A stretch of 64,000 nt of DNA from Limnomonas spitsbergensis (lineage: Eukaryota > Chlorophyta > Chlorophyceae > Chlamydomonadales). Shown here in pieces: positions 1 to 62,900 of this stretch. The first letter of the stretch is position 1. Every line of letters begins with the position of its first letter. The stretch is from the NCBI GenBank assembly GCA_037349105.1, contig JAYJMM010000041.1:1426001-1490000 (forward strand), given 5' to 3'. Made by a program: the position numbers and the translations under genes. The notes beneath the pieces are model-generated. The model was not told the DNA's origin and did not search any database. It saw only the letters and a program-made list of their open reading frames with translations.

Positions 1-410
1 ATCTGTCATTGACCCAGACAGGCCATGCATCATATCTGTCACTGACCCAGACAGGCCATGCATCACATCTGCAAGACTGTAACTGACCCAGACAGGCCTT
101 GCATCACATCTGCAAGACTGTTACTGACCCAGACAGGCCATGCATCATATCTGCAAGACTGTTACTGACCCAGACAGGACATGCATCATATCTATCACTG
201 ACCCAGACAGGCCTTGCATCACATCTGCAAGACTGTTACTGACCCAGGCAGGCCATGCATCATATCTGCAAGACTGTCACTGACCCAGACAGGCCCTGCA
301 TCACATCTGCAAGATTGTCACTGACTCAGACAGGCCCTGCATCACATCTGCAAGACTGTTACTGACCCAGACAGGCCTTGCATCACATCTGTCACTGACC
401 CAGACAGGCC

Positions 411-27300: not shown

Positions 27301-27700
27301 TTGCATCACATCTGCAAGACTGTTACTGACCCAGACAGGCCATGCATCATATGTGTCACTGACCCAGACAGGCCTTGCATCACATCTGCAAGACTGTTAC
27401 TGACCCAGACAGGCCATGCATCATATCTGTCGCTGACCCAGACAGGCCCTGCATCACATCTGCAAGACAGTAACTGACCCAGACAGGCCATGCATCACAT
27501 CTGTCACTGACCCAGACAGCCCATGCATCATATCTGCAAGACTGTCATTGACCCAGACAGGCCATGCATCATATCTGTCACTGACCCAGACAGGCCATGC
27601 ATCACATCTGCAAGACTGTAACTGACCCAGACAGGCCATGCATCACATCTGTCACTGACCCAGACAGGCCCTGCATCACATCTGCAAGACTGTTACTGAC
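18283..27700 (+). repeat. Tandem higher-order duplication, offset about 5.4 kb
   Basis: About 18,283-19,700 matches about 23,728-25,130 at an offset of 5,445 bp. About 19,800-22,300 matches about 25,130-27,640 at 5,338 bp. The 107-bp difference equals 33+33+41, a loss of three units. Markers in both copies include CTGACCCCGACAGG (near 18,412 and 23,857), CATAGCTGTCACTG (near 20,851 and 26,189) and GGCCTTACATC (near 21,752 and 27,090). A private change, GACATGCC near 26,289 against GACAGGCC in its partner, arose after duplication. Confidence 0.88.
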
Positions 27701-30700: not shown

Positions 30701-31552
30701 CATCACATCTGCAAGACTGTTACTGACCCAGACAGGCCATGCATCATATCTGCAAGACTGTTACTGACCGAGACAGGCCTTGCATCACATCTGCAAGACT
30801 GTAACTGACCCAGACAGGCCATGCATCACATCTGTCACTGACCCAGACAGGCCATGCATCACATCTGCAAGACTGTTACTGACCGAGACAGGCCATGCAT
30901 CACATCTGTCACTGACCCAGACAGGCCTTGCATCATATCTGTCACTGACCCAGACAGGCCATGCATCACATCTGCAAGACTGTTACTGGCCCAGACAGGC
31001 CTTGCATCACATCTGTCACTGACCCAGACAGGCCTTGCATCATATATGTCACTGACCCAGACAGGCCATGCATCATATCTGCAAGACTGTTACTGACCCA
31101 GACAGGCCATGCATCATATATGTCACTGACCCAGACAGGCCTTGCATCACATCTGTCACTAACAGAGACAGGCCTTGCATCATATCTGTCACTGACCCAG
31201 ACAGGCCCTGCATCACATCTGCAAGACTGTAACTGACCCAGACAGGCCATGCATCATATATGCAAGACTGTTACTGACCCAGACAGGCCTTGCATCACAT
31301 ATGTCACTGACCCAGACAGGCCTTGCATCACATCTGCAAGACTGTAACTGACCCAGACAGGCCATGCATCACATCTGTCACTGACCCAGACAGGCCTTGC
31401 ATCACATCTGCAAGACTGTCACTGACCCAGACAGGCCTTGCATCACATCTGTCACTGACCCAGACAGGCCTTGCATCACATCTGCAAGACTGTTACTGAC
31501 CCAGACAGGCCATGCATCATATCTGCAAGACTGTTACTGACCCAGACAGGCC

Positions 31553-40500: not shown

Positions 40501-43500
40501 CATATCTGTCACTGACCCAGACAGGCCTTGCATCACATCTGCAAGACTGTTATTGACCTAGACAGGCCATGCATCATATCTGTTATTGACCCAGACAGGC
40601 CTTGCATCACATCTGTCACTGACCCAGACAGGCCATGCATCATATCTGTCACTGACCCAGACAGGCCATGCATCACATCTGCAAGACTGTAACTGACCCA
40701 GACAGGCCTTGCATCACATCTGTCATTGACCCAGACAGGCCATGCATCATATCTGTCACTGACCCAGACAGGCCATGCATCACATCTGCAAGACTGTAAC
40801 AGACCCAGACAGGCCTTGCATCACATCTGCAAGACTGTTACTGACCCAGACAGGCCATGCATCATATCTGCAAGACTGTTACTGACCCAGACAGGACATG
40901 CATCATATCTGTCACTGACCCAGACAGGCCTTGCATCACATCTGCAAGACTGTTACTGACCCAGGCAGGCCATGCATCATATCTGCAAGACTGTCACTGA
41001 CCCAGACAGGCCCTGCATCACATCTGCAAGACTGTCACTGACTCAGACAGGCCCTGCATCACATCTGCAAGACTGTTACTGACCCAGACAGGCCTTGCAT
41101 CACATCTGTCACTGACCCAGACAGGCCATGCATCACATCTGCAAGACTGTTACTGACCCAGACAGGCCTTGCATCATATCTGTCACTGACCCAGACAGGC
41201 CTTGCATCACATCTGTCACTCACCCAGACAGGCCCTGCATCACATCTGCAAGACTGTTACTGACCCAGACAGGCCTTGCATCACATATGTCACTGACCCA
41301 GACAGGCCATGCATCATATCTGTCACTGACCCAGACAGGCCTTGCATCACATCTGTCACTGACCCAGACAGGCCCTGCATCACATCTGCAAGACTGTTAC
41401 TGACCCAGACAGGCCTTGCATCACATCTGTCACTGACCCAGACAGGCCATGCATCATATCTGCAAGACTGTTACTGACCCAGACAGGCCTTGCATCACAT
41501 CTGCAAGACTGTAACTGACCCAGAAAGGCCATGCATCACATCTGTCACTGACCCAGACAGGCCATGCATCACATCTGCAAGACTGTTACTGACCGAGACA
41601 GGCCATGCATCACATCTGTCACTGACCCAGACAGGCCTTGCATCACATCTGTCACTGACCCAGACAGGCCATGCATCACATCTGCAAGACTGTTACTGAC
41701 CGAGACAGGCCATGCATCACATCTGTCACTGACCCAGACAGGCCTTGCATCACATCTGTCACTGACCCAGACAGGCCATGCATCACATCGGCAAGACTGT
41801 TACTGACCGAGACAGGCCATGCATCACATCTGTCACTGACCCAGACAGGCCTTGCATCATATCTGTCACTGACCCAGACAGGCCATGCATCACATCTGCA
41901 AGATTGTTACTGGCCCGGACAGGCCTTGCATCACATCTGTCACTGACCCAGACAGGCCTTGCATCATATATGTCACTGACCCAGACAGGCCATGCATCAT
42001 ATCTGCAAGACTGTTACTGACCCAGACAGGCCATGCATCATATATGTCACTGACCCAGACAGGCCTTGCATCACATCTGTCACTGACAGAGACAGGCCTT
42101 GCATCATATCTGTCACTGACCCAGACAGGCCCTGCATCACATCTGCAAGACTGTAACTGACCCAGACAGGCCATGCATCATATCTGCAAGACTGTTACTG
42201 ACCCAGACAGGCCTTGCATCACATATGTCACTGACCCAGACAGGCCTTGCATCACATCTGCAAGACTGTAACTGACCCAGACAGGCCATGCATCACATAT
42301 GTCACTGACCCAGACAGGCCTTGCATCACATCTGCAAGACTGTTACTGACCCAGACAGGCCATGCATCATATCTGTCACTGACCCAGACAGGCCTTGCAT
42401 CACATCTGCAAGACTGTTACTGACCCAGACAGGCCATGCATCATATCTGCAAGACTGTTACTGACCCAGACAGGCCTTGCATCACATCTGCAAGACTGTA
42501 ACTGACCCAGACAGGCCATGCATCACATCTGTCACTGACCCAGACAGGCCATGCATCACATCTGCAAGACTGTTACTGACCGAGACAGGCCATGCATCAC
42601 ATCTGTCACTGACCCAGACAGGCCTTGCATCATATCTGTCACTGACCCAGACAGGCCATGCATCACATCTGCAAGACTGTTACTGGCCCAGACAGGCCTT
42701 GCATCACATCTGTCACTGACCCAGACAGGCCATGCATCATATCTGTCACTGACCCAGACAGGCCATGCATCATATCTGTCATTGACCCAGACAGGCCTTG
42801 CATCATATATGTCACTGACCCAGACAGGCCATGCATCATATCTGCAAGACTGTTACTGACCCAGGCAGGCCATGCATCATATCTGTCACTGACCCAGACA
42901 GGCCTTGCATCACATCTGTCACTGACCCAGACAGGCCCTGCATCACATCTGCAAGACTGTTACTGACCCAGACAGGCCTTGCATCATATATGTCACTGAC
43001 CCAGACAGGCCATGCATCATATCTGTCACAGACCCAGACAGGCCTTGCATCATATCTGTCACTGACCCAGACAGGCCTTGCATCACATCTGCAAGACTGT
43101 TACTGACCCAGACAGGCCATGCATCATATTTGCAAGACTGTTACTGACCCAGGCAGGCCATGCATCACATCTGTCACTGACCCAGACAGGCCTTGCATCA
43201 CATCTGTTACTAACCCAGACATGCCATGCATCATATATGTCACTGACCCAGACAGGCCATGCATCATATCTGTCACTGACCCAGACAGGCCTTGCATCAC
43301 ATCTGCAAGACTGTTACTGACCCAGACAGGCCATGCATCATATGTGTCACTGACCCAGACAGGCCTTGCATCACATCTGCAAGACTGTTACTGACCCAGA
43401 CAGGCCATGCATCATATCTGTCGCTGACCCAGACAGGCCCTGCATCACATCTGCAAGACAGTAACTGACCCAGACAGGCCATGCATCACATCTGTCACTG

Positions 43501-45450
43501 ACCCAGACAGCCCATGCATCATATCTGCAAGACTGTCATTGGCCCAGACAGGCCATGCATCATATCTGTCACAGACCCAGACAGGCCATGCATCATATCT
43601 GCAAGACTGTTACTGACCCAGACAGGCCTTGCATCATATCTGTCACTGACCCAGACAGGCCTTGCATCACATCTGCAAGACTGTTATTGACCTAGACAGG
43701 CCATGCATCATATCTGTTACTGACCCAGACAGGCCTTGCATCACATCTGTCACTGACCCAGACAGGCCATGCATCATATCTGTCACTGACCCAGACAGGC
43801 CATGCATCACATCTGCAAGACTGTAACTGACCCAGACAGGCCTTGCATCACATCTGTCATTGACCCAGACAGGCCATGCATCATATCTGTCACTGACCCA
43901 GACAGGCCATGCATCACATCTGCAAGACTGTAACTGACCCAGACAGGCCTTGCATCACATCTGCAAGACTGTTACTGACCCAGACAGGCCATGCATCATA
44001 TCTGCAAGACTGTTACTGACCCAGACAGGACATGCATCATATCTGTCACTGACCCAGACAGGCCTTGCATCACATCTGCAAGACTGTTACTGACCCAGGC
44101 AGGCCATGCATCATATCTGCAAGACTGTCACTGACCCAGACAGGCCCTGCATCACATCTGCAAGACTGTCACTGACTCAGACAGGCCCTGCATCACATCT
44201 GCAAGACTGTTACTGACCCAGACAGGCCTTGCATCACATCTGTCACTGACCCAGACAGGCCATGCATCACATATGCAAGACTGTTACTGACCCAGACAGG
44301 CCTTGCATCATATCTGTCACTGACCCAGACAGGCCTTGCATCACATCTGTCACTCACCCAGACAGGCCCTGCATCACATCTGCAAGACTGTTACTGACCC
44401 AGACAGGCCTTGCATCACATATGTCACTGACCCAGACAGGCCATGCATCATATCTGTCACTGACCCAGACAGGCCTTGCATCACATCTGTCACTGACCCA
44501 GACAGGCCCTGCATCACATCTGCAAGACTGTTACTGACCCAGACAGGCCTTGCATCACATCTGTCACTGACCCAGACAGGCCATGCATCATATCTGCAAG
44601 ACTGTTACTGACCCAGACAGGCCATGCATCATATCTGTCACTGACCCAGACAGGCCATGCATCACATCTGCAAGACTGTAACTGACCCAGACAGGCCATG
44701 CATCACATCTGTCACTGACCCAGACAGGCCATGCATCATATCTGCAAGACTGTTACTGACCCAGACAGGCCATGCATCATATATGTCACTGACCCATACA
44801 GGCCTTGCATCACATCTGTCACTGACCCAGACAGGCCTTGCATCACATCTGGCACTGACCTAGACAGGCCATGCATCATATCTGTCACTGACCCAGACAG
44901 GCCTTGCATCACATCTGTCACTGACCCAGACAGGCCATGCATCATATCTGTCACTGACCCAGACAGGCCATGCATCATATCTGTCACTGACCCAGACAGG
45001 CCATGCATCACATCTGCAAGACTGTAACTGACCCAGACAGGCCTTGCATCACATCTGTCACGGACCCAGACAGGCCCTGCATCACATCTGCAAGACTGTA
45101 ACTGACCCAGACAGGCCATGCATCACATCTGTCACTGACCCAGACAGGCCTTGCATCACATCTGCAAGACTGTTACTGACCCAGACAGGCCATGCATCAT
45201 ATCTGTCACTGACCCAGACAGGCCTTGCATCACATCTGCAAGAATGTTACTGACCCAGACAGGCCATGCATCATATCTGCAAGACTGTTACTGACCCAGA
45301 CAGGCCTTGCATCACATCTGCAAGACTGTAACTGACCCAGACAGGCCATGCATCACATCTGTCACTGACCCAGACAGGCCATGCATCACATCTGCAAGAC
45401 TGTTACTGACCGAGACAGGCCATGCATCACATCTGTCACTGACCCAGACA
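31553..45450 (+). repeat. Nested higher-order duplications, offsets about 3.03 and 6.9 kb
   Basis: The rare CCAGAAAGGCC variant occurs near 31,587, 34,614, 38,530 and 41,524, each time with the same neighbouring units, including CATCGGCAAGACTG and CAAGATTGTTACTGGCCCGG. The spacings (3,027, 3,916 and 2,994 bp) and the matches 31,553 to 38,496 (6,943 bp) and 34,218 to 41,128 (6,910 bp) indicate a roughly 3-kb tandem duplication, followed by tandem duplication of a block of about 6.9 kb that contained it. Confidence 0.85.
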
Positions 45451-48400
45451 GGCCTTGCATCATATCTGTCACTGACCCAGACAGGCCATGCATCACATCT
45501 GCAAGACTGTTACTGGCCCAGACAGGCCTTGCATCACATCTGTCACAGACCCAGACAGGCCATGCATCATATCTGTCACTGACCCAGACAGGCCATGCAT
45601 CATATCTGTCATTGACCCAGACAGGCCTTGCATCATATATGTCACTGACCCAGACAGGCCATGCATCATATCTGCAAGACTGTTACTGACCCAGGCAGGC
45701 CATGCATCATATCTGTCACTGACCCAGACAGGCCTTGCATCACATATGTCACTGACCCAGACAGGCCCTGCATCACATCTGCAAGACTGTTACTGACCCA
45801 GACAGGCCTTGCATCATATCTGTCACTGACCCAGACAGGCCATGCATCATATCTGTCACAGACCCAGACAGGCCTTGCATCATATCTGTCACTGACCCAG
45901 ACAGGCCTTGCATTACATCTGCAAGACTGTTACTGACCCAGACAGGCCATGCATCATATTTGCAAGACTGTTACTGACCCAGGCAGGCCATGCATCACAT
46001 CTGTCACTGACCCAGACAGGCCTTGCATCACATCTGTTACTAACCCAGACAGGCCATGCATCATATATGTCACTGACCCAGACAGGCCATGCATCATATC
46101 TGTCACTGACCCAGACAGGCCTTGCTTCACATCTGCAAGACTGTTACTGACCCAGACAGGCCATGCATCATATGTGTCACTGACCCAGACAGGCCTTGCA
46201 TCACATCTGCAAGACTGTTACTGACCCAGACAGGCCATGCATCATATCTGTCGCTGACCCAGACAGGCCCTGCATCACATCTGCAAGACAGTAACTGACC
46301 CAGACAGGCCATGCATCACATCTGTCACTGACCCAGACAGCCCATGCATCATATCTGCAAGACTGTCATTGACCCAGACAGGCCATGCATCATATCTGTC
46401 ACTGACCCAGACAGGCCATGCATCATATCTGCAAGACTGTTACTGACCCAGACAGGCCTTGCATCATATCTGTCACTGACCCAGACAGGCCTTGCATCAC
46501 ATCTGCAAGACTGTTATTGACCTAGACAGGCCATGCATCATATCTGTTACTGACCCAGACAGGCCTTGCATCACATCTGTCACTGACCCAGACAGGCCAT
46601 GCATCATATCTGTCACTGACCCAGACAGGCCATGCATCACATCTGCAAGACTGTAACTGACCCAGACAGGCCTTGCATCACATCTGTCATTGACCCAGAC
46701 AGGCCATGCATCATATCTGTCACTGACCCAGACAGGCCATGCATCACATCTGCAAGACTGTAACTGACCCAGACAGGCCTTGCATCACATCTGCAAGACT
46801 GTTACTGACCCAGACAGGCCATGCATCATATCTGCAAGACTGTTACTGACCCAGACAGGACATGCATCATATCTGTCACTGACCCAGACAGGCCTTGCAT
46901 CACATCTGCAAGACTGTTACTGACCGAGGCAGGCCATGCATCATATCTGCAAGACTGTCACTGACCCAGACAGGCCCTACATCACATCTGCAAGACTGTC
47001 ACTGACTCAGACAGGCCCTGCATCACATCTGCAAGACTGTTACTGACCCAGACAGGCCTTGCATCACATCTGTCACTGACCCAGACAGGCCATGCATCAC
47101 ATCTGCAAGACTGTTACTGACCCAGACAGGCCTTGCATCATATCTGTCACTGACCCAGACAGGCCTTGCATCACATCTGTCACTCACCCAGACAGGCCAT
47201 GCATCACATCTGCAAGACTGTTACTGACCCAGACAGGCCTTGCATCACATCTGTCACTGACCCAGACAGGCCATGCATCATATCTGTCACTGACCCAGAC
47301 AGGCCTTGCATCACATCTGTCACTGACCCAGACAGGCCCTGCATCACATCTGCAAGACTGTTACTGACCCAGACAGGCCTTGCATCACATCTGTCACTGA
47401 CCCAGACAGGCCATGCATCATATCTGCAAGACTGTTACTGACCCAGACAGGCCATGCATCATATCTGTCACTGACCCAGACAGGCCATGCATCACATCTG
47501 CAAGACTGTAACTGACCCAGACAGGCCATGCATCACATCTGTCACTGACCCAGACAGGCCATGCATCATATCTGCAAGACTGTTACTGACCCAGACAGGC
47601 CATGCATCATATATGTCACTGACCCATACAGGCCTTGCATCACATCTGTCACTGACCCAGACAGGCCTTGCATCACATCTGGCACTGACCTAGACAGGCC
47701 ATGCATCATATCTGTCACTGACCCAGACAGGCCTTGCATCACATCTGTCACTGACCCAGACAGGCCATGCATCATATCTGTCACTGACCCAGACAGGCCA
47801 TGCATCATATCTGTCACTGACCCAGACAGGCCATGCATCACATCTGCAAGACTGTAACTGACCCAGACAGGCCTTGCATCACATCTGTCACGGACCCAGA
47901 CAGGCCCTGCATCACATCTGCAAGTCTGTTACTGACCCAGACAGGCTATGCATCATATCTGTCACTGACCCAGACAGGCCTTGCATCACATCTGCAAGAC
48001 TGTTACTGACCCAGACAGGCCATGCATCATATCTGCAAGACTGTTACTGACCCAGACAGGCCTTGCATCACATCTGTCACTGACCCAGACAGGCCATGCA
48101 TCATATCTGCAAGACTGTTACTGACCCAGACAGGCCATGCATCATATCTGTCACTGACCCAGACAGGCCTTGCATCACATCTGCAAGACTGTAACTGACC
48201 CAGACAGGCCATGCATCACATCTGTCACTGACCCAAACAGGCCATGCATCATATCTGCAAGACTGTTACTGACCCAGACAGGCCATGCATCATATATGTC
48301 ACTGACACACACAGGCCTTGCATCACATCTGTCACTGACCCAGACAGGCCTTGCATCACATCTGTCACTGACCCAGACAGGCCATGCATCATATCTGTCA

Positions 48401-49250
48401 CTGACCCAGACAGGCCTTGCATCACATCTGTCACTGACCCAGACAGGCCATGCATCATATCTGTCACTGACCCAGACAGGCCATGCATCATATCTGTCAC
48501 TGACCCAGACAGGCCATGCATCACATCTGCAAGACTGTAACTGACCCAGACAGGCCATGCATCACATCTGTCACTGACCCAGACAGGCCCTGCATCACAT
48601 CTGCAAGACTGTTACTGACCCAGACAGGCCATGCATCATATCTGTCACTGACCCAGACAAGCCTTGCATCACATATGCAAGACTGTTACTGACCCAGACA
48701 GGCCATGCATCATATCTGCAAGACTGTTACTGACCCAGACAGGCCTTGCATCACATCTGCAAGACTGTAACTGACCCAGACAGGCCATGCATCACATATG
48801 TCACTGACCCAGACAGGCCATGCATCACATCTGCAAGACTGTTACTGACCGAGACAGGCCATGCATCACATCTGTCACTGACCCAGACAGGCCTTGCATC
48901 ATATCTGTCACTGACCCAGACAGGCCATGCATCACATCTGCAAGACTGTTACTGGCCCAGACAGGCCTTGCATCACATCTGTCACTGACCCAGACAGGCC
49001 TTGCATCATATATGTCACTGACCCAGACAGGCCATGCATCATATCTGCAAGACTGTTACTGACCCAGACAGGCCATGCATCATATATGTCACTGACCCAG
49101 ACAGGCCTTGCATCACATCTGTCACTGACAGAGACAGGCCTTGCATCATATCTGTCACTGACCCAGACAGGCCCTGCATCACATCTGCAAGACTGTAACT
49201 GACCCAGACAGGCCATGCATCATATCTGCAAGACTGTTACTGACCCAGAC
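44262..49250 (+). repeat. Higher-order duplication, offset 2,830 bp
   Basis: The unit order from about 44,262-45,030 recurs at about 47,092-47,860, and the segments ending near 46,310 and 43,480 are related to each other. This part carries the same GGCACTGACCTAGACAGG and GACCCATACAGG variants as the left end of the window (near 1,090 and 4,390). The right end of the array is therefore closer to the left end than to the middle in unit content. Confidence 0.75.
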
Positions 49251-49654
49251 AGGCCTTGCATCACATATGTCACTGACCCAGACAGGCCTTGCATCACATC
49301 TGCAAGACTGTTACTGACCCAGACAGGCCTTGCATCACATCTGTCACTGACCCAGACAGGCCTTGCATCACATCTGCAAGACTGTTACTGACCCAGACAG
49401 GCCTTGCATCACATCTGCAAGACTGTTACTGACCCAGACAGGCCATGCATCATATCTGTCACTGACCCAGACAGGCCCTGCATCACATCTGCAAGACTGT
49501 AACTGACCCAGACAGGCCATGCATCACATCTGTCACTGACCCAGACAGGCCATGCATCATATCTGTCACTGACCCAGACAGGCCTTGCATCATATCTGTC
49601 ACTGACCCAGACAGGCCCTGCATCACATCTGCAAGACTGTTACTGACCCAGACA

Positions 49655-50065
49655 GGCCATGCATCATATATGTCACTGACCCAGACAGGCCTTGCATCAC
49701 ATCTGTCACTGACCCAGACAGGCCATGCATCATATCTGTCACTCACCCAGACAGGCCATGCATCATATATGTCACTGACCCAGACAGGCCTTGCATCACA
49801 TCTGTCACTGACCCAGACAGGCCATGCATCATATCTGTCACTGACCCAGACAGGCCATGCATCATATCTGTCACTGACCCAGACAGGCCATGCATCATAT
49901 CTGTCACTGACCCAGACAGGCCCTGCATCATATATGTCACTGACCCAGACAGGCCATGCATCATATCTGTCACTGACCCAGACAGGCCATGCATCATATA
50001 TGTCACTGACCCAGACAGGCCCTGCATCATATCTGTCACTGACCCAGACAGGCCTTGCATCACAT
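49655..50065 (+). repeat. Pure 33-bp block near the array's right edge
   Basis: About twelve consecutive 33-bp units occur here without a single 41-bp unit, which is the longest uninterrupted run in the window. Because 33 is a multiple of three, frames stay open across it (for example 137 codons at 49,670-50,083). That openness follows from unit length and is not evidence of coding. Confidence 0.85.
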
Positions 50066-50300
50066 CTGCAAGACTGTCACTGACCCAGACAGGCCATGCA
50101 TCACATCTGTCACTGACCCAGACAGGCCATGCACCAGATCCATAACTGACCCAGACAGGCCATGCATCATATATGTAACTGACCCAGACAGGCCCTGCAC
50201 CAGATCCCCAACTGACCCAGACAGGCCCTGCACCAGATCCCCAACTGACCTAGGCTCTGCACTGCGCCCTGAACCCTGATCCCCAACCTTACCTAAACAG
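50066..50300 (+). repeat. Degenerating array edge merging into a splice acceptor
   Basis: The last units replace GCATCACATCTG with GCACCAGATCCCCAA. They then shorten (CTGACCTAGGCTCTGCAC) and run into GATCCCCAACCTTACC, TAAACAG|GCTATAC. This final stretch aligns with a preceding unit (GATCCCCAACTGACCC, AGACAG|GCCCTGC) with one gap and few mismatches. The 3' splice AG (50,299-50,300) coincides with the invariant ACAG|GC of the satellite unit. Confidence 0.8.
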
Positions 50301-51014
50301 GCTATACTGGGCGCTCCGTTTGCCCTGGCGGCCCTCCTGCTCCCGGCTGTACAGCTCCGGAGCCATGATCTGGCAGGGGAGCTTGACATGGGCAGGGTCT
50401 CCCCGGAGAAGTATCGGGGCACGTACGTTGCGGCGGCAGCAGCAGCGCCCGCCGGCGTTGAACTGTCTGCTGATCCGGGGGGTGAGCTTGCTAAGCAAGG
50501 CGTGTGCGGCGTGAGTGGCAGCAGGGCGCTTCTGGGAGATGCTGAACATGTCGCCAAGCCCGCCGAGCGGTGGCTGTGGGGCGGCGCGGGCCAGGATGCG
50601 AGCGGCAGCAGGGCGCCTCTTGGCGATGCTGCACATGCCGCCCAGCCTGCTGATCCGGGGGCGAAGTCTGCTGAACGTGGGTCTGAGCCTGCTGATCCGT
50701 GGACCAAACCTGTTGATTCGGGGGCCGAGCCTGATGAGCGGAATCCACGGGAGGCGCGAGGCAGCAGGGTGCATGCCGTGAATGTCACAGCCGGCATGAG
50801 AGAGGTAGGACCGCTGGCCACGGCTACTTCTCCTGGTGCTACTGGTCCGGCTGGTACTACTGGTCCGGCTGGTATTGCTTGTACTGCCGGTGTTCCTTGT
50901 ACTGCTGCTGGTACCGCTGTCTCCAAGACCTGGAATGTTCTGTTTGATCACGGAGGTTGCGACAAGAACCTCGACGCAGCGCGAGGGATACGGTTCCCGG
51001 GATGTCTGATGCAG
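50301..51014 (+). CDS. SPNS: Transporter exon 1 in window: TM6 and low-complexity loop
   Basis: The exon follows AAACAG at 50,295-50,300 and ends at GATGCAG|GTGGGC. The frame is closed upstream by TGA at 50,277-50,279. A hydrophobic helix precedes the first ATG (50,388), so the exon probably starts at the splice site and not at that ATG. The order AIL..PFALA....PAVQL resembles the TM6 region of plant Spinster homologues. Next comes RVSPEKY, then a loop of about 170 residues with an 87-bp direct repeat (50,514 and 50,601; SGSRA.LGDA.H) and collagen-like GPAG triplets. The last part, from about TWNVLF to CLMQ, matches nothing I recognise. The opposite strand is also open over most of the exon, which I attribute to base composition. 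Confidence 0.7.
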
Positions 51015-54000
51015 GTGGGCAGCAGCAGGATCTACATGCTTACGTGCAACACTATATGTGCCAACTCTGAAGTCTGAACCCCATGCAATCCCAATGCAGA
51101 CCCTAATAACCTAAATCCTAAACCCCATGCAAGCCATGTGCAAATCTATGTATAACCTTAAGCTCATGGAAAACCTAAACCCCGTGCAAACCATGTGCAA
51201 ATCCTGAGGCCTAAACCCTATGAAAATCCCAAACCCCATGCACGCCCTTATGCCCATGCAAATCCTTTGGATTCTGAAACCACCCAATACACTATATGTA
51301 CATACCGTTTATAATATACACATACCGTATACCCAATACGCGAACACTATATGTATGTTCGTTGTACCCTATGCACAGGGGTGGGTCACCCAGGCCACTG
51401 CCCTCAGTTTTAAATAATCTGCTGAGCGGCCAAGACATAAACTTCGTGACCCCCTTGCCACTTATGCTGCGACAGAGAGTTTCCGATTTCCCTCTAGCCT
51501 GTCAGGGTTCAGGTTCTGGGGGACCTGATTGCCCTGGGGCCTGTCAACCTCCAGTTGAAGGTGAAGGGTTAAGGGCCCGATTTCCCTCTGATCTGCCGGG
51601 TATTTTTGAGTTAAAAGTCTAAAATGTTAGGAGCTAGATCCATTCCTTAACCCTGAATGACCCCTATTTCTTGTGTTCGTGGTCAAGGGCTATGGGTTGA
51701 AGGTAAACGATCCAAGGACCCAGCACCACTCCTGAATTCCTGAACAACCACTGTATTAATTGCGCCCAGGTTGCAAGCGTCCCTCTGAAGGCTGTGGATG
51801 AAGGTTCAGGGTATAAGGGTTGAAGATCCATGAAGAAAGCCTCACTTCTAAACCCTAATTGAACCCTCTTGGTTCCGTCCAGGGTGTGATGGTCCCTCAG
51901 AAGGCTGTAGATGTGGGCGGCGACTGTATGAAACCGGCGCGTGAGATCAGCGTACGAGTGTTCGAGGGCGCCAGCCAGCACATGAGTGGTGGCCCATGTG
52001 TTGGTCAGGAGGGGGGACATGTTCCGCCTGCCACGTGAGTCAATAGATTGGGCACGGGTTAGTACCACTACCCGGCACGGGAACAGAAAATGGCATGTAT
52101 AGCGACCGGGGCGTTGAGCCAGGGGGGAAGAGATGGCATGCCAGCCACATGACTTCATCAATAGGGCCTGGCTAGTATGATCAGTACCGTGCCCGGCGTG
52201 GTTGATAAATTGATCAATATATAAAAGACATGGTTGGAGGCCAAGGTGCTGGACGGGATGGGAAGACGTCCTGCCGGCTATGTCAGTATATATTAGGCAA
52301 TTATAAGTATATTAAGTACATAGCGTGGTCAATCGGTTAAGAAACCCTAAACAAGATGCCCTGGGTGGAGGCCAAGGTGCTGGGCGGGAGGGAAAGACGT
52401 GCCGCGGGCCACACCAGTTCATCAATCAGCACACAGCACCTGTAGATGTGCTACGCCGTCCCTCGTAATCACGTTGAGTTGGGGGTGAGGAATACATGAA
52501 AATACTACTGATGGAGCTTCAGAGCCTGGTCCCAATCGGAAATGGAGATTTCCCCCAATATTTTGCCCTGAAGAAAGGCTTAAACAAATAATCAATTCAT
52601 ACCCCAGGGAAAACAAATCAAATCTATGGCACCCAAGAATGTGCTGGGACTGAGGGATAGATACAATGTTAATTATGGCTGGGTGACGCCAGTTTCCAAT
52701 CGAGATTATTGTGTAAGTATTCTGCCCTCACGGCAGTATTGATGGCGGCTGACTCCCCCCCCCTGCCCCCCGCCTTCCCTGACTCCCCACCCTCCACCTT
52801 TTGCCCCCCTCCTTCCCTGCCCCTGCCACTGCGCCCTCCTGGTGCTGAGCTGGTGGCAGCTGACTCCCTCCTCCCCTCCCTTCTCCAATGCACCTGTCTC
52901 TTGCCAGGCTGGCTGTCTGGCTGGTGCTGAGGTGGCGGCGAGTGCTGCAGGTTCTGGTACACAGCGCCTGGAATTTCAACAACTTTGGCTACCTCCCGAT
53001 TGAGTTCATCTTGCAGGTCAGATGTGTGCTTCTTGTTGTGCAGCGCAGCTACTGTTCAGCTACTGTTCAGCTTATCTTCAGCTACAGTTCAGCTAGGGTA
53101 CTCCTACCTCTCGGCCTCCGGCCAAAGTCCTCATGCGCCAGCCATGCTGCTTGGGCTTGTGTCTGTAAGCTGCTGGTTTGCCCCAGCCGAACCCTTGGCG
53201 GCTGCAGGACGACCCGCACAAGAAGGACTCGTAGTCCCCACCAAAAACAAAGAAACGCTGCAGGAATGCCGACCAAAGGATAAGCTTTCTGAGTGGAAAT
53301 CTGTTTGGCGTGGCAGTCAGATACCCTAAACCCTTGATAGGTCAAAGGTAGGGTTAGCGTGAGAGGTGTTTTTTGCGTCACAAACATATTCTGTGTTCTT
53401 CGGCGTGCGCTATACCACCTTTATAGGGCCAGCCTGGCAGCCATCACTGGTCCCATCAGGATCAAGCAAACAATGGTGGCATCATCCGGCTGAACATGTG
53501 CCGTATTACTTCGTTTTGTGCCATACCCTGCTATTGTGTAAGTACAATCCGTCTTCACCTGTGCAGTATCGCACAGCATCATGCCGTCACGTGATGCCAT
53601 GGATCAAACCTTGACCGGCCCTTCATCCCCTCCATCCCCTGCCCTCCATCCCCTCCCACTGCCTGTCTGCCTATCTGCCTGCCCCCCTTGTTCCCCTTAA
53701 CTGCCTGCCTGCCCTCCATACCCTCCCCCTGCCTGCCCCCTATCTCCTCCCCTTACCTGCCTGCCTGCCCTCCATCCCCTCCCCCTGTCTGCCTGCCAGC
53801 CTGCCCTTCATCCCCTCCCACTGCCTCTCTGCCTACCTGCCTGCCCCCCTCTCCTCCCATTACCTGCCTGCCTGCCCCCCATACCCTCCCACTGTCAGCC
53901 TACCCTCCATCTCCTCCCACTGCCAGCCTGCCCCCCATCCCCTCCCACTGCCTGCTTGCGTACCTGCCTGCCCCCCATCCCATCCCCCTGCCTGCCTGTC

Positions 54001-57000
54001 TGCCTGCCTGCCAGTTTGCCAGCCTGCCCCCTCCACCCACCCCCCCTTTGCCTGTCTGCCTGCCCCATGCAGCTGTTCTCGTATTGGGGACCGTACGTGG
54101 CCATGCAGCTCTATTCCCTGAAGAGCAGCGAGAGTGACCTGGCGGTGGGCGCAACGGCGCTGGCAGCAGGTACTCAACCTTTAGCCATGCATCCTTAAGC
54201 CTCAGCTGTAGAGGAACCCCAAGCTTTAAGATGTGGTTGATCCGTGAACCCTACACCCCAAGCTGTAGCTCAACTCCATGAAGAGCAGCGACAGTGGCCA
54301 TAGGTGCAACGGCGCTGGTTGTAGGTACAAATTGGTTGCCATGAACCCTCAACCCTCAAGCCTAAGCCCTTCGCCCTGTGGCTTTACCGTAAACCCTACA
54401 CCCCAAGCTGTGGCTGAACTATAAAACCTATGCTGTAGCTGAACCCTAAACCGTAAGCTGTGGCTTAACCCTTTAATGCAACCTGCAGGTGAATCCTAAG
54501 CCCTGAACCTTAAGCTCTAGGTGTATTGTAAAAATGTAAACCCTAAACCCTGTGCATTAGCTGTATCCTAAATCCTAGGCTGAAGCTCGGTCATAAACCC
54601 TGAACCTAAGATGTAGCTAACCCTTTAACCCTAAACCTCCAGCTGTAACTGATCTGTAAACCGTGAACAAATACTGCTTCAAGAAGGGAGATGATACAAC
54701 CCAACGTAAAGCTAAGCCCCCCAGCCCAATACTGTTCATGCCCGACATCTTTATCAACCTACAATTCAGCTACCATTCAGATCAGATTCATCTGTGATTC
54801 AGCTACATTGCGGTATTTGTCTGTGTGGAGGCCTGGCCCGGCGAGTCCTGCTGCTTGGGCCACCGGCTGCTAGCCGATCTATCTTTGGTCCCCATTCAAC
54901 CCTGTCTTGGCTGCCCTGCCACAGGCTGTCTGGTGTGTAGTACATTGAAATCGCCCTGCATCATGGATTAAGGAACAGTGCAGGGCAATTCATGGTCATG
55001 ATGGTCGACCTTTTGACGTTGCAACAAAAAGTAAGGTCATTCTGTCAACATTTACTGTTTCATGGTGTAACACCCTGATTTACGTTATACCTGAGTCCAT
55101 TTTACGGGGTCACAGCGCAACGCTGTTAAATAAGCCACCCGTTCAGCCGTGGCACAAAGTAGGCGACCATGTAGGGTGTGCACTATTATAAACAAGCACT
55201 GCTGATTCCGCTCACAAATGGGCAGGCGCTCTGCAGCTGGTCGAAAACTGGCCCTAGGGTCACCATTTGGTGGAACTTGGACCACAGGCTGTACCAGGAA
55301 CTGGGCGCCGAACGGGTTCCAAGCCCATAACTGCCGAATATGAGAATGTAAGAAAATTAGGCACTGCAACCTTTCCTCGGTAACTTATTTTGAACGAGTC
55401 AGGTGATGCAAGCAACCACACATGCCAGCACGTGTCATGCAAGCAAGCAGGTCAGGTCAGCTTCTTCATGCAGCCTGGCAGGTGCATTTTTACTGCTTGC
55501 CCTTCAGTCTTTCCCCAAGCCCTGTCTTCCTCAGCCTGCCCTCTGGCCTGCCTACCTGCAAGGATCGTGGGCAATCAACTATATGAAGCTGTTTTGTGTC
55601 ATGCTAAGCCTCATATCAGGCTTCGATACTTCTTATCCTCCTGCCCTCTGGCCTGCCTACCCGCAGGGATGGTGGGCAATCGATTATAACTGAAGATGTT
55701 GCAGGCATCATACCCGGCTGCAATGCTTCTTAACCGCCTACCCTTTGCCCTCTGGCCTGCTTGCCTGCAGGGATCGTTGGCAACTAACTATCCAAAGCTG
55801 CGCTAAATCCGGTTAAGGCGGCATATCCGGCTCCGAAGCTTATGAACCGCCCACCCTCTGCCCTCTGGCCTGCTTACTTGCAGGAGTCAAGTGCAATCAA
55901 CTCACTTGCGGCAGGTGTCGTTTTACTGCCTAAACCTGAAACCCTAAAATCCTCTGTCCTTCTTGCAGGGATCGTGGGTAGCCTGGGCGGGGGGCTGCTG
56001 CTGGATAAGGCTGGGCCGTCACTGAAGAACGGCTTCATGTGAGAGGGGGCATTTGACTTTGGTAGCATAATCCGGCTACAATTGGGATGCGCAGTACCAT
56101 GCTACCTTGCTTTGACAGGGGATGGTCATGCACCCCTAAGTATGCCCTAAGGGTGACCTAAATCAATGCCCTGGTGGATGTTTCCGGCCAGGCTGTGACG
56201 GGGGAGTCATGCGAGAGTGGGCTTTTGACAGGGGAGGGTCATGCGTACGTCCTGAAGTGTGACTTTCAACATGGGTAGCATCATCCGGCTAAGCCTGTAA
56301 CGAGCCATATCATGCTTCCTTGCTCTTGATAGGGGCTTGATCTTGGATGTCCACTTTTGCCCTTAACCCTGAGCCCTGGATGGGTTCATGTGAGGGGCGA
56401 TACTTGACAGGGGCTTGCCATGCACCTTTCAAGCCGTTGTGACCAGGTACTCCGATACAAACGCACGCTGCTCTCGTGGCCGTGAAATACATTGCTTAAC
56501 AGGGGGGGAAATGAAAGTTAAATCGAACTCTCCCCCGTCCCCAGGTTCTCAGCTTTCAGCACCCTGCTTTCCTGCATTTTCTACTCGGCGGCCATGGCAA
56601 CCCGCTCGCTGACATTGACCTCATTTCTGGTCCTCATTGGCCTCGGGACCACCTTCGCAGCCGCAGTCAATCCCATGAACTACGCACTGAGCATGTGGAC
56701 GGTGCATCCCGGTGCTAGGTGGGTTGCAGGTCTATAAGCTTTGTGGCTGGAATCTGGATGGTTAGCAGTTGGGATCCGGATGGTTGGTAGTTAGGATCCG
56801 TATGGTGGACGGTTGGGATCTAAGTGCCTTGTGGTTGGGATCTGATCTAAGAGCAGATCGCAGCCGCAGTCAATCCAATGAACTACGCACTGAGCATGTG
56901 GACGGTGCATCCCGCCGCTCAGTGGGTTGCAGGGTTAGGGGTGGAGTTAGAGGTTAGGGTTAGAGGGCTACATTAAGGGTTAGAGGTTTCGATTTAGGTT

Positions 57001-58492
57001 AAGCATTACAGGGTTTAGGGTAAGGGTTGGAGGGTTGGATTGAGGGGTTTGAGTAAAAAAGGGGCATTGTGGGGGACTAGAGTAAGGAATGGAGGTCTAA
57101 GGCTTCAAGCTGGATGTTTATAGATAAGGATGTAGGGTAAGAGGGTAAAATGTTTCGGTGAAGGGTTGAAGGCTGGTGCTTCCCAGCGCTTGGTGGGTCG
57201 CAGGGTTACAAATTTAAGTTCAAGGTTTTTGTTTAGGGTGATGAATCAGTGCATTCCGGTAAATGGTGGGTTGCAGGTTTGCAGGATTAAGTCCATGGGT
57301 TTAGGGTTTACACTGCTACCCTCTCCCTCATGCTGTGTGGCAGGCCCATGAGGTTGGGGTTCATGTTTTAGCCTGCTCCCGCCCCCCACCCTCCTGCTGT
57401 GTGGCAGGCCCATGTCCCAGGCTCTGCTGATCTTCAGCCAGCGGCTCATCTCCGACATCCCAGCCCCGCCTATTGCCGGAGCGATCCAGGGCCGGCTGGA
57501 TGACTGGCGGACGACCACCAACATCTGCATATGCTACATGGTGGTCGGCATGGTGTTGTACGCAGCGGGCTGGTGGACAGCCGACAAATCTCCAGATTAT
57601 CGGAGGTTGTACGATGAGCAAGGTGATAAGGGTTAAGGCCCTGTTTGTGTTCCCCCCCCGCTTTGTGTTCCTCCCCCCTTTCTTACACAATGAGCCAGTT
57701 GATTCAGGTTACGGGTTTAGGCGGATGAGCGTTTAGGGTGTAGTACTACCTCCAACTACTGTAGGCAGTAGGACCCGCAAGTGTGCCGACCCGAATCTAT
57801 ATGATGGTTGGGATTTCAAGGGCTGGGGAAATGCCTGGTGGTTGGGATCCGGATGGTTGATTTAGGGATAAATTGGTAGGTGATTTGGATCCGAATGGTT
57901 GTTGGTTGGGATCCGTATGGTTGGCGCTTGGGATCTCAGTGCCAGGTGGTGATGATCTGCATGGATGGGTGGTTTAAATCCAGACAGCAGGCAATTGGGA
58001 TATAAAAGCCAGGTGGTTGGCTTCTGGGTGGTTGGAGGTTGGGGTCTTGATAGTTGGTGGTTGGGATCCAGGTACCCTCCTGATCTCGTCTTCTAGCTAT
58101 GATTGGCATGTGACAACGTGTCAGTTGGCATGTGACAGCGTGTCAGAAGCATGTGACAGCGTGTCAGTTGGATACAGGGCCTGGAGTTGATTTTTGTATC
58201 ACCTCGCTGTGAATTTGCAGCGGGGTTGCAAGCCTTTCCTGGCTTGATGGCTTTTATACCTAGCTCTTTGGCGCTTTCAGGACTGGTTGCTTCCTGTCTC
58301 TCTGGTTTTCAAAGCCTGTGTGGCTTTCAGGACTCAAGCTGCTATCTTGTTTCGAAGCGCAGCTGGTGCACTGAACCGCCATCTCGTTTCCTGTGTGCAG
58401 AGGCTCGGGACATTGCAGAGGCGTTGGGGCAAGCACAGGCGCTAGCACAGGGGCAAGCACAGGGACAGGCGATGGGGCAACTACAGGCGTAA
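50301..58492 (+). CDS. SPNS: Spinster-like MFS transporter, 3' half (partial, seven exons)
   Basis: This encodes the C-terminal half of a major facilitator of the Spinster family, which includes proton-coupled lysolipid and sphingolipid transporters and a plant branch; the substrate here is unknown. Reconstructed exons are 50301-51014, 52951-53016, 54073-54169, 55969-56038, 56545-56718, 57408-57622 and 58401-58492, and all phases are compatible. Visible landmarks are TM6 (ILGAPFALAALLLPAVQL), a long Ala/Pro/Gly-rich central loop, TM7 with FSYWGPYVAM, TM8 with GIVGSLGGGLLLDKAG, TM9-10 ending NPMNYALSMWTVHP, TM11 with SDIPAPPIAGAIQGRLDDW, and TM12 (ICICYMVVGMVLYAAGWW). The YWGP, GIVG..GG..LD and D.P.PP..G motifs are Spinster hallmarks, although the usual GD before the prolines is SD here. 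TM1-5 must be upstream of the satellite, outside the window. An alternative end is a stop at 57634-57636 if the last intron is retained. The 5' edges of exons 1 and 2 are the least certain. Confidence 0.85.
51015..52950 (+). repeat. Transporter intron 1-2: telomere-like and direct repeats
   Basis: Non-coding. At 51,080-51,260 there are degenerate AAACCCCATGCAAACC and CCATGTGCAAATC repeats, resembling decayed CCCTAAA tracts. The segment GGAGGCCAAGGTGCTGG occurs at about 52,237 and again at about 52,366. The pyrimidine-rich 3' part (52,740-52,907) contains diverged copies of the GCTGGTGCTGAGGTGG segment that precedes exon 2, at about 52,839 and 52,921. A 165-codon open frame on the - strand (51,664-52,161) has no recognisable domain. 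Confidence 0.65.
52951..53016 (+). CDS. SPNS: Transporter exon 2: start of TM7
   Basis: This is a 22-codon exon (VLVHSAWNF to EFILQ) between GTGCTGCAG and GTCAGATG. It joins the next exon as FILQ|LFSYWGP, matching the family pattern of a GY....F segment followed by YWGP. An alternative, better-looking acceptor with a long pyrimidine tract at 52,907 would start the exon at 52,908 in phase 2. It is not phase-compatible with the donor at 51,015, so 52,951 is preferred. Confidence 0.65.
53017..54072 (+). repeat. Transporter intron 2-3: CAGCTACTGTT repeats and CCTGCC minisatellite
   Basis: At 53,045-53,100 a CAGCTACTGTT-like motif repeats (a related AATTCAGCTACCATTCAG tract recurs near 54,762). 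From about 53,610 to 54,070 there is a pyrimidine-rich minisatellite of CCCTCCATCCCCTCCC and CTGCCTGCCTGCC blocks. Its last member forms the pyrimidine tract of the exon 3 acceptor. Open frames here on either strand are composition artefacts. Confidence 0.8.
54073..54169 (+). CDS. SPNS: Transporter exon 3: TM7/TM8
   Basis: The exon lies between CCCCATGCAG and the donor GTACTC. It encodes FSYWGPYVAMQLYS, an acidic and polar linker (KSSESD), and the start of TM8 (LAVGATALAAG). It ends in phase 1, and the split Gly codon is completed by the GG that opens exon 4. A degraded copy of its 3' end and donor lies about 155 bp downstream. Confidence 0.88.
54170..55968 (+). repeat. Transporter intron 3-4: donor copy, telomere-like array, acceptor copies
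   Basis: Near 54,277-54,330 is a mutated copy of the exon 3 end and donor (GAAGAGCAGCGACAG to GTAGGTACAA). From 54,200 to 54,670 there are degenerate AACCCTAA(A/G)CTGTAGCTG repeats of about 25-30 bp. From 55,530 to 55,968 the segment CCCTCTGGCCTGC, CTACCTGCAG|GGATCGTGGGCAATC repeats at roughly 104-bp spacing. Its look-alike AGs are at about 55,562, 55,666, 55,770 and 55,883, before the real one at 55,967-55,968. Confidence 0.85.
55969..56038 (+). CDS. SPNS: Transporter exon 4: TM8 glycine motif
   Basis: This is a 70-nt exon after TCTTGCAG and before GTGAGAGG. It encodes IVGSLGGGLLLDKAGPSLKN, the family GIvG..gGg..D motif. It ends with AT, which becomes Met with the first G of exon 5. Four look-alike acceptors lie upstream, and copies of its 3' boundary lie downstream. 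Confidence 0.9.
56039..56544 (+). repeat. Transporter intron 4-5: about 175-bp tandem copies of the exon 4 donor
   Basis: The junction TTCAT|GTGAGAGGGGGC followed by TTTGAC recurs as GTCATGCGAGAGTGGGC near 56,206 (GC instead of GT) and as GGTTCATGTGAGGGGCG near 56,383 (GT kept). The inner segment GGTAGCAT(A/C)ATCCGGCTA is also repeated, near 56,061 and 56,275. The spacing is about 172-179 bp. Confidence 0.8.
56545..56718 (+). CDS. SPNS: Transporter exon 5: TM9 and TM10
   Basis: The exon lies between CGTCCCCAG and the donor GTGGGT. It encodes two hydrophobic helices (FSTLLSCIFYSAAMA and SFLVLIGLGTTFAAAVNP), followed by MNYALSMWTVHPGA. The pattern is like the family's AP.N....VP...R signature. 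The split Arg codon AG|G joins exon 6. Confidence 0.9.
   Translation, partial: VLSFQHPAFLHFLLGGHGNPLADIDLISGPHWPRDHLRSRSQSHELRTEHVDGASRC
56719..57407 (+). repeat. Transporter intron 5-6: exon-end copies and a duplicated acceptor
   Basis: 56,858-56,933 is a near-identical 76-bp copy of the exon 5 3' end plus donor (original 56,655-56,730, offset 203). Shorter diverged copies lie near 57,172-57,205 and 57,250-57,278. The acceptor ATGCTGTGTGGCAG|GCCCATG at 57,342-57,343 duplicates the real one (57,406-57,407). Between them are GGTTGGGATCC repeats (56,760-56,845) and AGGGTTAGAGG telomere-like repeats (56,930-57,060). Confidence 0.88.
57408..57622 (+). CDS. SPNS: Transporter exon 6: TM11 and TM12
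   Basis: The exon starts after GTGTGGCAG and reads PMSQALLIFSQRL, then DIPAPPIAGAIQGRLDDWR and TM12 (CYMVVGMVLYAAGWW). It continues to YRRLYDEQ, with a donor GTGATA after 57,622. If that donor is not used, the frame runs 12 more bases to TAA at 57,634-57,636. Confidence 0.88.
57623..58400 (+). repeat. Probable transporter intron 6-7: GGTTGGGATCC repeats
   Basis: From about 57,805 to 58,075 the motif GGTTGGGATCCGGATGGTTGG recurs imperfectly every 30-40 bp. At 58,100-58,170 the 18-mer CATGTGACAGCGTGTCAG occurs three times with one variant base. Near 58,275 and 58,327 the segment GGC(G/T)(C)TTTCAGGACT is duplicated. If the terminal intron is not spliced, this is 3' untranslated or intergenic sequence. 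Confidence 0.75.
58401..58492 (+). CDS. SPNS: Possible last transporter exon: Gln/Ala-rich tail
   Basis: It begins after a good acceptor (TTTCCTGTGTGCAG) and is in phase with the donor at 57,623, which gives EQ|EARDIAEALGQ. A hydrophilic Q/A/G repeat tail made of near-copies of GGGGCAAGCACAGG follows. Stop is TAA at 58,490-58,492. Support comes from phase agreement and a TGTAA about 310 nt downstream. Against it, low-complexity sequence opens frames easily and the family has no conserved tail here. Confidence 0.5.
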
Positions 58493-59847: not shown

Positions 59848-59952
59848 CTATTCCGTCTTGGGGGCGGGTGGACGATCTACTAGCTTTCCCTTGGCGTCAA
59901 GCATCTTCCGGAATGGGATGAATTCAATACCCATCATATACGGTTGCAGGAC
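59848..59952 (-). CDS. SARS1: SerRS last exon
   Basis: Encodes [14 protein letters not shown], then a basic/proline tail ending PPAPKTE, stop TAG at 59,850-59,848. Starts after CCTCTTGCAG. Confidence 0.95.
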
Positions 59953-62900
59953 CTGCAAGAGGGGTTGCAAGAGCACAACGTGTGTATGTGTGTCAAAGCT
60001 GGAATATTGTGTGCAAAGAAAACATATATTTGCTCTGAAGGGGCTAGGGGGTAGACAATGCCATGTACCCACACATACACCTTTAAATCATAAAATGGGC
60101 CCCACATCCAGCCCCTATACATTACCTTTGGCACGCGCACGCCATCTGGAGTCTGGAAATTCTCCAGCACACAGCATAGTGTCCGCTCAGTTGCCGTCAG
60201 TGTGCTGTTCAACATGTGCACAAAGCGGTTGCCGCCCTGTTCGCCGGCCTGGCCCTTGGGCACGCGCAGCCGGATGTCCAAGCGGCGCGACTGGTCCAGG
60301 GTTAGAAGCACACCACTCAGACACGCCGGGTGCAAACATCAGACGGCTTGGCAGCATCAAATCCCCCAATAAATGCATAGCGTATGCCATGGACCATGGA
60401 TGCCTTATCACACTTCAAGGAAACTTGACCCCCCCCATACAATGCATGCAGGAAGAGACATCCTCGCCAACTGGGCTGTGGCACACCAGCCCAACTGGCA
60501 TTTGAATCACGCAGCCTTACCTGGTAGTCTGTGCAGTTGGAGCAGGAGACAAGCTCTCGGAACGTTTTACTGGCCGGGAACCAGGCCTCAAGGTCATACC
60601 TGAATACAAAGATTGCAGTCCTTGAGTAATTATCTAGCATCTGAACATGGAGATTGAAAACAAGCTGTGTGTTTGCAGGAGCACACCATCCGTTTGGCTA
60701 TTCATTGGTCAGGCGCAAGAGCGTAAGTTTGCTTGTTTCTTTCATGGCTGGTGTCTTGCAGCCATATCCTATCACTCTGAAGGGTAAAAAATAAGCGGCT
60801 TCAAGTTGCAGGGCAGCACCGTGCCACACTTTTAGCTGCATAAATAGCATGCCTGGACAAGGACTCTGCACCCAGGCAAAATACAGTGCATGTCTCTCTA
60901 TCCCCACCCTTACCCATTACCCATTGCTCGCATCCTTTCAAGCTCATAATGGCTACAACCCGCCAGTAAGTAAATAAACAACATCCACCCCTTAAATTGA
61001 AGGGCAATGTTGGACCTTTCAAATTGCACCCATACTTACTTCTTGGCCGCTGCGTTGTTCAGCTCTCCAGAAACAATGTTGACCACACGGTAAGGCAGCT
61101 CCAGACCCTGAAGCAGCCAAAAGAGAAGACACACGAGCGCATTTTAAAACGTCAGGCATTCAAGTTTTATTTATCAGTTATTGGCAAGGTAAGGCCATTT
61201 GCCGGTATTCCAAACACATTTGCTTCACGACAGGCAAGTTGTTTTCAAAGGCTGCACATATGCGCCGTAGTGCGTGCATAAAGACCCTATTGATTATAAA
61301 TGTTAGCAGCCACCAGCCCAGCAGCCACCAGCCACCAGCCCAGCAGCCACCAGCCCAGCAGCCACCAGCCACCAGCCCAGCAGCCACCAGCCACCAGCCC
61401 AGCAGCCACCAGCCCACCAGCCCAGCAGCCACCAGCCCAGCAGCCAGCAGCCACCAGCCCAGCAGCCAGCATCCGCACACAGGAAACATCCCCAAGGCCC
61501 ACACAAGCAGCATGCACACCAACACAAGCCAAGCTCCGCGCTGTCTCTCTCCCTGGCAGCCATGACCCATAATGCAAGAACAAAGCATAATGATCATGCA
61601 TCCACACACCACGGAATAGCAACCCGATATGCGTCATACTGGGCATTAAGCCCTTGTTTTTTTTGTACCGTTACAATGGGCAAAGCAATTACCCTGACGA
61701 CATGGTCGACGGCTCCCCCCTGATGGCTACAGCAAAGCGGTGTGTTAAGAGCGAAATTAAGAGTGAATACAACAAGCCTTCCGTTCTTCTGTATACCCTG
61801 GTGGTGCTTGGGTTCCTTGATGTGCACATAAAGGAAGTGTCAAGTCCCATCCAGCCCAGGTCAAGGGAGTGTACAGCTCTCCCCAGGGCACACCTAATAG
61901 AAGCCGTTTGATTTGCTCAGCATCGCCTCCCTCAGCAAAACCTGGTAGAAGCGCACTACATTGCCTAGCATTGCTTCCTCAGCGCACCTGATAGAAGCCC
62001 TCTGCATTGCCCAGCATTTCCTCCATGATCTCCCATGAGGCGTTGCCCTCGGGGGAGCAGATGGCAAACTGCTCAATCTTCTCAAACTGGTGAATTCTGC
62101 AAGAAAGCAGAGAAGCACACCCGGCAGGGATCAAGCATCAGGGATGCCCTATAATGGCTATGAACACACAATAAGGAGGCGGGTCAGAGGACACAATGCT
62201 TTGAGCATGGCTTGCAGACAAGAGCATCTTACCAATGTGTTAAATCGACAAAAAAAATGAGTCAAGTCGTCAGGAAGCACAGGACGCCAACCATGACTTG
62301 GCGGTTACATCTTGCACTGGCCTACCGTCCCTCTGTCAAACCACTCTTTTACCTGCATAATTGTCACTCCTCCGCATAGACAGCAATGGAATGTCGAGTT
62401 TCACATTGTCATGGCTCCCTACTCTTATTTGACTACAAAACCTCGCAGCACCTCTACCCGAAGAGCCGAGCCCCTTCACCCTAGGTCATACGTCCCTTAT
62501 CCCTCCCTTAAGCCTTCCACTTCCCTTCACCCTCTACCCTCCTGTCCCTCCTCCAAGCATCATTGCTCCTCCACCCCCTCTCAACCAAGCATACAATTGC
62601 AGAAGATGTCCGGTGTGTCCCTGCAGTACCACCCACCCACCTGAAGATGCCGAGTGTGTCTCTGCCATGGCTTCCAACCTCTTTCCTGAAGCAGGTCGAG
62701 TAGCCAACATACCTGCAGAGCAGCAATGCAGGGGCGGCCGAGTAAGGGGGGGGAAGGGGGTAAATGAGAACAAGATATCAGGTATGCGAGTGGGATGTGG
62801 CCAGGATCAAGTTCGGCGTCATATCATATATTCATATCTTACAAGATATCCGCAAGTCTAAGATCATGTACAACAGTACAATGCTCCAAAGTAGAGCAGG

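Follow-up and report, generated by a model that had tools for sequence, protein, structure and literature searches.

Introduction

A satellite array that stops exactly at a splice acceptor raises the question of which came first, the junction or the satellite. We examined this question at a locus of the green alga Limnomonas spitsbergensis, using a window of 64,000 nucleotides (C41:1426001-1490000) from an assembly of 260.2 Mb in 124 contigs. The array in this window runs up to the predicted 3′ end of an intron in a transporter gene, and the original prediction was that it had been seeded by that intron end. To our knowledge, the birth of a satellite has rarely been caught next to its source.

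Organization of the satellite array

The array spans 68.8 kb rather than the 50 kb first proposed, extending left past the window from position 50244 to C41:1407430. It comprises 1895 chained units, 1110 of 33 bp and 785 of 41 bp, and none of the 1895 has any other length. This uniformity of unit length is seen in an assembly for which continuous long reads were probably used. The bulk satellite (plus strand, 1..50112 in the window and leftward to C41:1407430) is built of 33-bp units with the consensus CTGACCCAGACAGGCCATGCATCATATCTGTCA and of 41-bp units. It is followed by four edge units on the same strand (50113..50244), three of which carry the variant CACCAGATCCCCAA or CACCAGATCCATAA. The hexamer ACAGGC, previously described as invariant in every unit, was found at its position in 1796 of the 1895 units, and the CAG within it in 1881. 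Inside the array, a unit carries 1.3-1.5 differences from the consensus on average; at the right edge the number rises to as many as 7 of 33, the value for the last two units. The locus has the long head-to-tail array, the short unit and the interior more uniform than the worn edge by which satellite DNA is recognized.

Large blocks of the array are duplicated. Exact recurrence was observed for 68% of its 300-mers, and the longest exact repeat was 3577 bp at a spacing of 10,351 bp. A search of the array for a regular higher-order repeat gave a best lag of 287 units, with a unit-type identity of only 15%.

An exact bulk 26-mer occurs 396 times in the assembly, on the forward strand only, and all 396 copies lie within the array; this search of the assembly gave no further locus of the family. 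The edge 20-mer CACCAGATCCCCAACTGACC (up to two mismatches) has three matches assembly-wide, each at the right edge of the array. A 16-mer unit core, also with up to two mismatches, matched 2084 times in the forward and 246 times in the reverse orientation; 1886 forward and no reverse matches fall in the array stretch, which leaves 198 forward and 246 reverse matches elsewhere. Because these short lookalikes exceed the control (the reversed pattern, with 49 and 69 matches), related short sequences may occur elsewhere, and the case for a local birth of the satellite depends on the exact 26-mer together with the edge variant.

The transporter gene and its predicted acceptor

The array is followed on the plus strand by the exons of an OATP/MFS-like transporter. 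Exon A (50301..51014), identified by homology, covers approximately helix 6 and a variable loop and is in phase 0 at both ends. Exon B (51883..52034) was assigned from its open frame and matching splice phases only, with no homologue seen. Exons C (52908-53016), D (54073-54169), E (55969-56038), F (56545-56718) and the stop-containing exon G (57408-57636) follow. Together, exons A-G form a single open frame of 514 codons plus stop, in which AG precedes each exon and GT follows all but the last. A query of exons A and C-G, with C cut and B omitted, gave 30.2 bits against PF03137 (OATP; cut-off 25.8), while its score for MFS_1 (PF07690) was under the cut-off (16.5 vs 33.4). The transporter query retrieved one green-algal protein, which in turn retrieved four more. 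The 3′ exons are closest to Chlamydomonas eustigma P0002; a search of solved structures with the 3′ half gave no match.

Exon A begins AILGAPFALAALLLPAVQLRS, and the corresponding exon of a paralogue on C34 begins AGLALPFVLFCVFMPALKIKS after CAG, likewise in phase 0; C. eustigma P0002 has AGLGLPFVIAAALMPPVGIQT at this position. Both AILGAPF of exon A and AGLALPF of the C34 paralogue follow CAG, use GCx as their first codon and start in phase 0. The predicted splice point at 50300|50301 is therefore supported by homology, since the position of the exon start is common to the C34 paralogue, and this support extends to the splice point of the earlier reading. Exon A had also been called exon 1. 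This label is incorrect because homologues place the start of exon A near transmembrane helix 6; judged from its position in the protein, the exon probably starts where helix 6 starts.

The left border of the array and the missing 5′ half

Helices of the transporter were found only from approximately helix 6 onward, short of the full set. The 181 kb from C41:1226001 to the array gave no tblastn hit (E up to 10) to the 5′ half. In the whole assembly, the 5′ half of P0002 gave nine matches at E up to 10, namely three on C34 and six weak ones elsewhere (E 0.06 to 4.2), and the 5′-half matches of P0001 were on C34. None of the whole-assembly matches could be assigned to the array-side gene, in a homology search that scored the best candidates only, so that small diverged exons could escape. 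The C34 paralogue was considered as the lost 5′ half and rejected, as it is a separate gene matched by both halves. C124, which has one of the weak P0002 5′-half matches and also a 3′-half match (E 0.002), is a candidate location for a third member of the transporter family.

On its left side the array ends abruptly: ordinary bulk units adjoin a dispersed repeat that has 26 assembly matches including itself and no Pfam match, and the border at C41:1407419/1407420 cuts this repeat mid-body. A copy of the repeat on C17 matches up to C41:1407419 and then proceeds into different sequence, a continuation that is present at 25 places in the assembly. The left border is therefore a breakpoint, either real or made by the assembly. 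An open frame with a DSGA motif, which we take to be retropepsin-like, lies approximately 3.6 kb further left.

An assembly misjoin, in which the array was joined to a copy of the repeat and a contig with the transporter 5′ half was lost, is a serious candidate that we place just short of an even balance. It is favored by the breakage of the repeat at the array edge while its continuation is kept at 25 other places, and by the 3′ exons, which are open and in phase, so that a real loss would need to be recent. The reported assembly procedure also allows for it: PacBio continuous long reads were assembled with Canu and polished, and weakly supported contigs were removed, according to the genome report (PMC11228838). 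However, the contig that holds the array is 10.7 Mb long, and the same facts fit a single genuine deletion that runs from the repeat into the array; if the breakpoint is real, such a deletion would explain why the repeat is cut and why the exons are missing. A misjoin bears on the fate of the gene, not on the homology of the junction, and can be combined with either origin of the array.

The intron 3′ end lies in the decayed edge of the array

By alignment, two decayed units continue the array beyond its last whole unit (50245..50302, plus strand), and the second of them holds the acceptor CAG|GC at 50300|50301. The final 56 intron bases lie beyond the last whole unit (50212-50244), and their alignment to the edge unit requires small insertions. 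The best gapped alignment at the intron end is GATCCCCAACCTTACCTAAACAGGC against GATCCCCAA-CTGACCCAGACAGGC, and the full match of 62 columns (50241-50302) reaches back into the last whole unit. The acceptor CAG|GC falls on the ACAG|GC of the unit, in register with the array. This confirms the coincidence of the splice AG|GC with the ACAG|GC of the unit that had been noted earlier from two strings, both of which exist, the junction at window 50278-50307 and an edge unit at 50203-50231.

The significance of the terminal match was evaluated with 2000 dinucleotide shuffles and with 5000 random non-array windows of the array's contig. The 56 intron bases scored 31 against a tripled edge unit, which was reached by one of the 2000 shuffles and none of the 5000 windows. 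When four preceding array bases and ten exon bases were added, the score was 37 (0/2000 shuffles and 0/4999 windows). Against the bulk 33-bp consensus, the same 56 bases scored 13, which is at chance level (p 0.39 for shuffles and 0.18 for genomic windows). The proposed comparison of the intron end and the unit with shuffled sequence was thus passed by the edge units and failed by the bulk consensus. Because the match to the bulk unit is no better than chance, the link from the junction to the bulk passes via the edge units. An 18-nt ungapped stretch over the junction, picked post hoc, agrees with the bulk at 14 of 18 positions (p 0.001 and 0.009). For the 19-nt junction piece alone compared with the edge unit, p was 0.03 by shuffling and 0.046 by genomic windows. 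No match to the unit was seen in the first 60 nt of exon A (p 0.42 for edge and 0.99 for bulk). The exon sequence shared with the unit is GC only, two bases where "a few" had been supposed.

We searched for a smooth gradient of junction likeness into the array by scoring against the terminal 33 bases, and found none. The stretch that ends with the last whole unit scored 29 and one near-edge unit scored 19, and the units excluding the last 20 averaged 14.7 with a maximum of 20. The wear of the array is one-sided, with a decayed right edge and ordinary bulk units at the left edge, suggesting that its oldest part adjoins the acceptor. The intron 3′ end, including the predicted acceptor, belongs to the decayed right edge of the array, and its homology to the array edge is well supported.

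Copies of splice junctions in other introns

A repeat search revealed that further introns of the transporter hold copies of their own junctions. In a junction test, 25 bases on each side of a junction were compared with its own intron, with the inverted intron, with the other introns of the gene (array excluded) and with shuffles in three-base blocks (200 or 300 each). A junction was counted as positive at a score of at least 28, which no shuffle reached. The intron before exon A entered the test as its last 1.3 kb only, and the acceptor of exon B was included although this exon was assigned from frame and phase.

In the transporter, 8 of 13 junctions were positive; in seven of these the copy spans the junction, and that of the exon D acceptor is confined to the intron side. 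All of the following copies are on the plus strand. The exon B acceptor junction is copied (span −10..+25) at 51760..51800 (end approximate) according to the junction test. Both searches detected one copy that includes the 3′ end of exon D and its donor (54264..54330, end approximate) and four copies of the exon E acceptor junction (55537..55913, spacing 105/104/113), the best of which includes 10 nt of the exon. For the donor junction of exon E, a copy (span −4..+19) lies at 56207..56235 (end approximate; junction test). The exon F 3′ end and donor are copied within 56858..57278, with 76 nt at 93% identity (56858-56933) and 30-nt copies at 57176 and 57249. The exon G acceptor junction has a copy at 57319..57350, which is 91% identical over 32 nt and lies 64 bp upstream of the real junction.

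A minus-strand gene with eight exons at window 59848-63939 and a PF00587 match, presumably a seryl-tRNA synthetase as named from its sequence, was positive at 2 of 14 junctions. Both are donor junctions copied in adjacent introns on the minus strand. A 57-bp tandem repeat (63536..63694) contains the best copy of the exon S1 donor junction (copy start 63658), and the exon S4 donor junction is copied (span −21..+21) at 61920..61962 (low end approximate; junction test). Separately, an array of CCACCAGCC-type units was observed at window 61305-61468, inside an intron of this gene.

The C34 paralogue was positive at three of seven junctions. Pooling the three genes, 13 of 34 junctions were positive, with no positive score for inverted introns (0/34) or for other introns of the gene (0/34). 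Junction-crossing direct copies were found at 12 of 34, which is no genome-wide estimate because the genes, from one genome, were picked non-randomly by nearness or availability. The copies lie in the intron adjoining the copied boundary at the exon A acceptor and at 11 other junctions of the 34. The crossing reaches least far into the exon at the satellite junction (2 bases), the exon E donor (4) and the exon G acceptor (7), while nine crossings reach 10-25 exon bases (acceptors of B, E, P2 and P4; donors of D, F, S1, S4 and P2).

For chaperonin genes, we used 28 of 47 matches, in six stretches, whose ends are set by the model match rather than by the exact junction. With the threshold again at a score of 28, 8 of these 56 ends had a direct copy and 2 of 56 an inverted one. 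When tiles were compared, direct copies occurred in 21 of the 201 edge tiles and in 11 of the 519 interior ones, and inverted copies in 4 and 3, respectively. At least two of the eight end copies look intron-sided on inspection. A repeat match of this appearance adjoins a chaperonin exon near C37:672743 (L048). In the C62 chaperonin gene (L043 2501-3008), which we take to be CCT6-like, a 120-bp unit containing the exon end, the donor and intron bases is repeated 4.2 times. The direction of copying is clear in this array if the exon part of the unit is conserved coding sequence, as we assume it to be. Amplification from a splice junction is thus shown more clearly at other junctions of the genome than at the 69-kb array, and these copies suggest that an intron can lengthen through duplication of its own ends.

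Comparison with known systems and intron growth

Tandem repeats of intron-exon boundaries, termed mirages, are described in lancelets for Adh, the globins BflGb6 and BflGb9, and TnC, with similar repeats in PGBD5 (PMC3087553, PMC3902484). The algal junction copies resemble them in the tandem duplication of a boundary and in the placement of the copies in the adjoining intron. The amphioxus units are 10-160 bp long with 3 to 6 copies where counted, whereas the alga has copies in several unrelated genes and one 1895-unit array that shares two bases with the exon. The introns of Drosophila kl-3 and kl-5 likewise hold satellite DNA within protein-coding genes, but these gigantic introns are described as megabase-sized, unlike the 69-kb algal array (PMC6508621). 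The Rogers model of intron gain by tandem genomic duplication also links tandem duplication within genes to intron evolution (PMC4974935, PMC3087553); in contrast, the algal data concern existing introns that are apparently growing, and no new intron is shown. We found no report of boundary-spanning minisatellites in green algae in the open-licence literature, which does not prove their absence, and the accessible parts of two further papers contain nothing on them (PMC5966456, PMC12628747).

The accessible part of one study leaves open what drives the atypical long introns of Chlamydomonas reinhardtii and its relatives (PMC8226300). As a tentative and somewhat doubtful generalization, tandem duplication of junctions might be a main engine of intron growth in this alga, many introns being sediments of decayed copies, with an occasional runaway into a private satellite, here 69 kb from a single acceptor. 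If true, this would explain concretely how introns become long in Chlamydomonas-like algae and offer a route by which satellites are born. Should junction duplication prove common in this alga, intron length and satellite birth could be counted in one genome by scoring each junction for self-copies. It also raises a question for splicing, as many near-copies adjoin the splice site that must be used.

Origin of the array

We lean towards the reading that the array is a locally born satellite, seeded by the splice junction at which the transporter's helix-6 exon begins and lying in the intron upstream of that exon. Approximately 33 bp ending two bases beyond the acceptor (−31..+2) would have been duplicated in tandem, as at other junctions. 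The copy adjoining the intact exon would have retained the splice function, and the upstream copies, free of coding constraint, may have diverged into the bulk type. Such duplication would be tolerated while the outer copy keeps splicing, and copies can therefore accumulate in introns. Unequal exchange and duplication of multi-kilobase blocks could then have amplified the bulk copies to 69 kb, and a later breakpoint would have cut the left end within the dispersed repeat, through either a real loss of the 5′ half or an assembly fault.

The original proposal of seeding by the intron 3′ end remains plausible. It stands as to the homology of the array edge, and junction amplification is clearer elsewhere, but its direction does not follow from the array itself. 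Since the unit and the exon share only GC, the array lacks the mark that shows direction at other junctions, which leaves room for the opposite order. In that order, an array from within the intron spread to the intron end, and its last unit became or replaced the acceptor. We regard this order as the less likely one. The absence of exon sequence other than GC from the unit agrees with it, as does the difference of the last two edge units from the bulk at 7 of 33 positions, which is expected where edges escape homogenization; intron-only arrays that abut an acceptor also occur, as in the chaperonin gene of L048. However, because the exon boundary is shared with the paralogue, an acceptor supplied by the satellite must have landed exactly on the old boundary in the ACAG|GC register, and junction duplication is frequent among the tested genes. 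We therefore favor seeding by the junction, on the grounds of the shared boundary and the exact register, although a CAG is to be expected at any acceptor.

Convergence, in which acceptor-like motifs make the unit resemble any intron end, draws on this requirement for CAG and on the modest p values of the 19-nt piece, but it is very improbable and was disfavored by the shuffle and genomic-window tests: the full match continues the array in register, only one of the shuffles and none of the windows scored as high, and the other introns of the transporter score at most 18 against 28.
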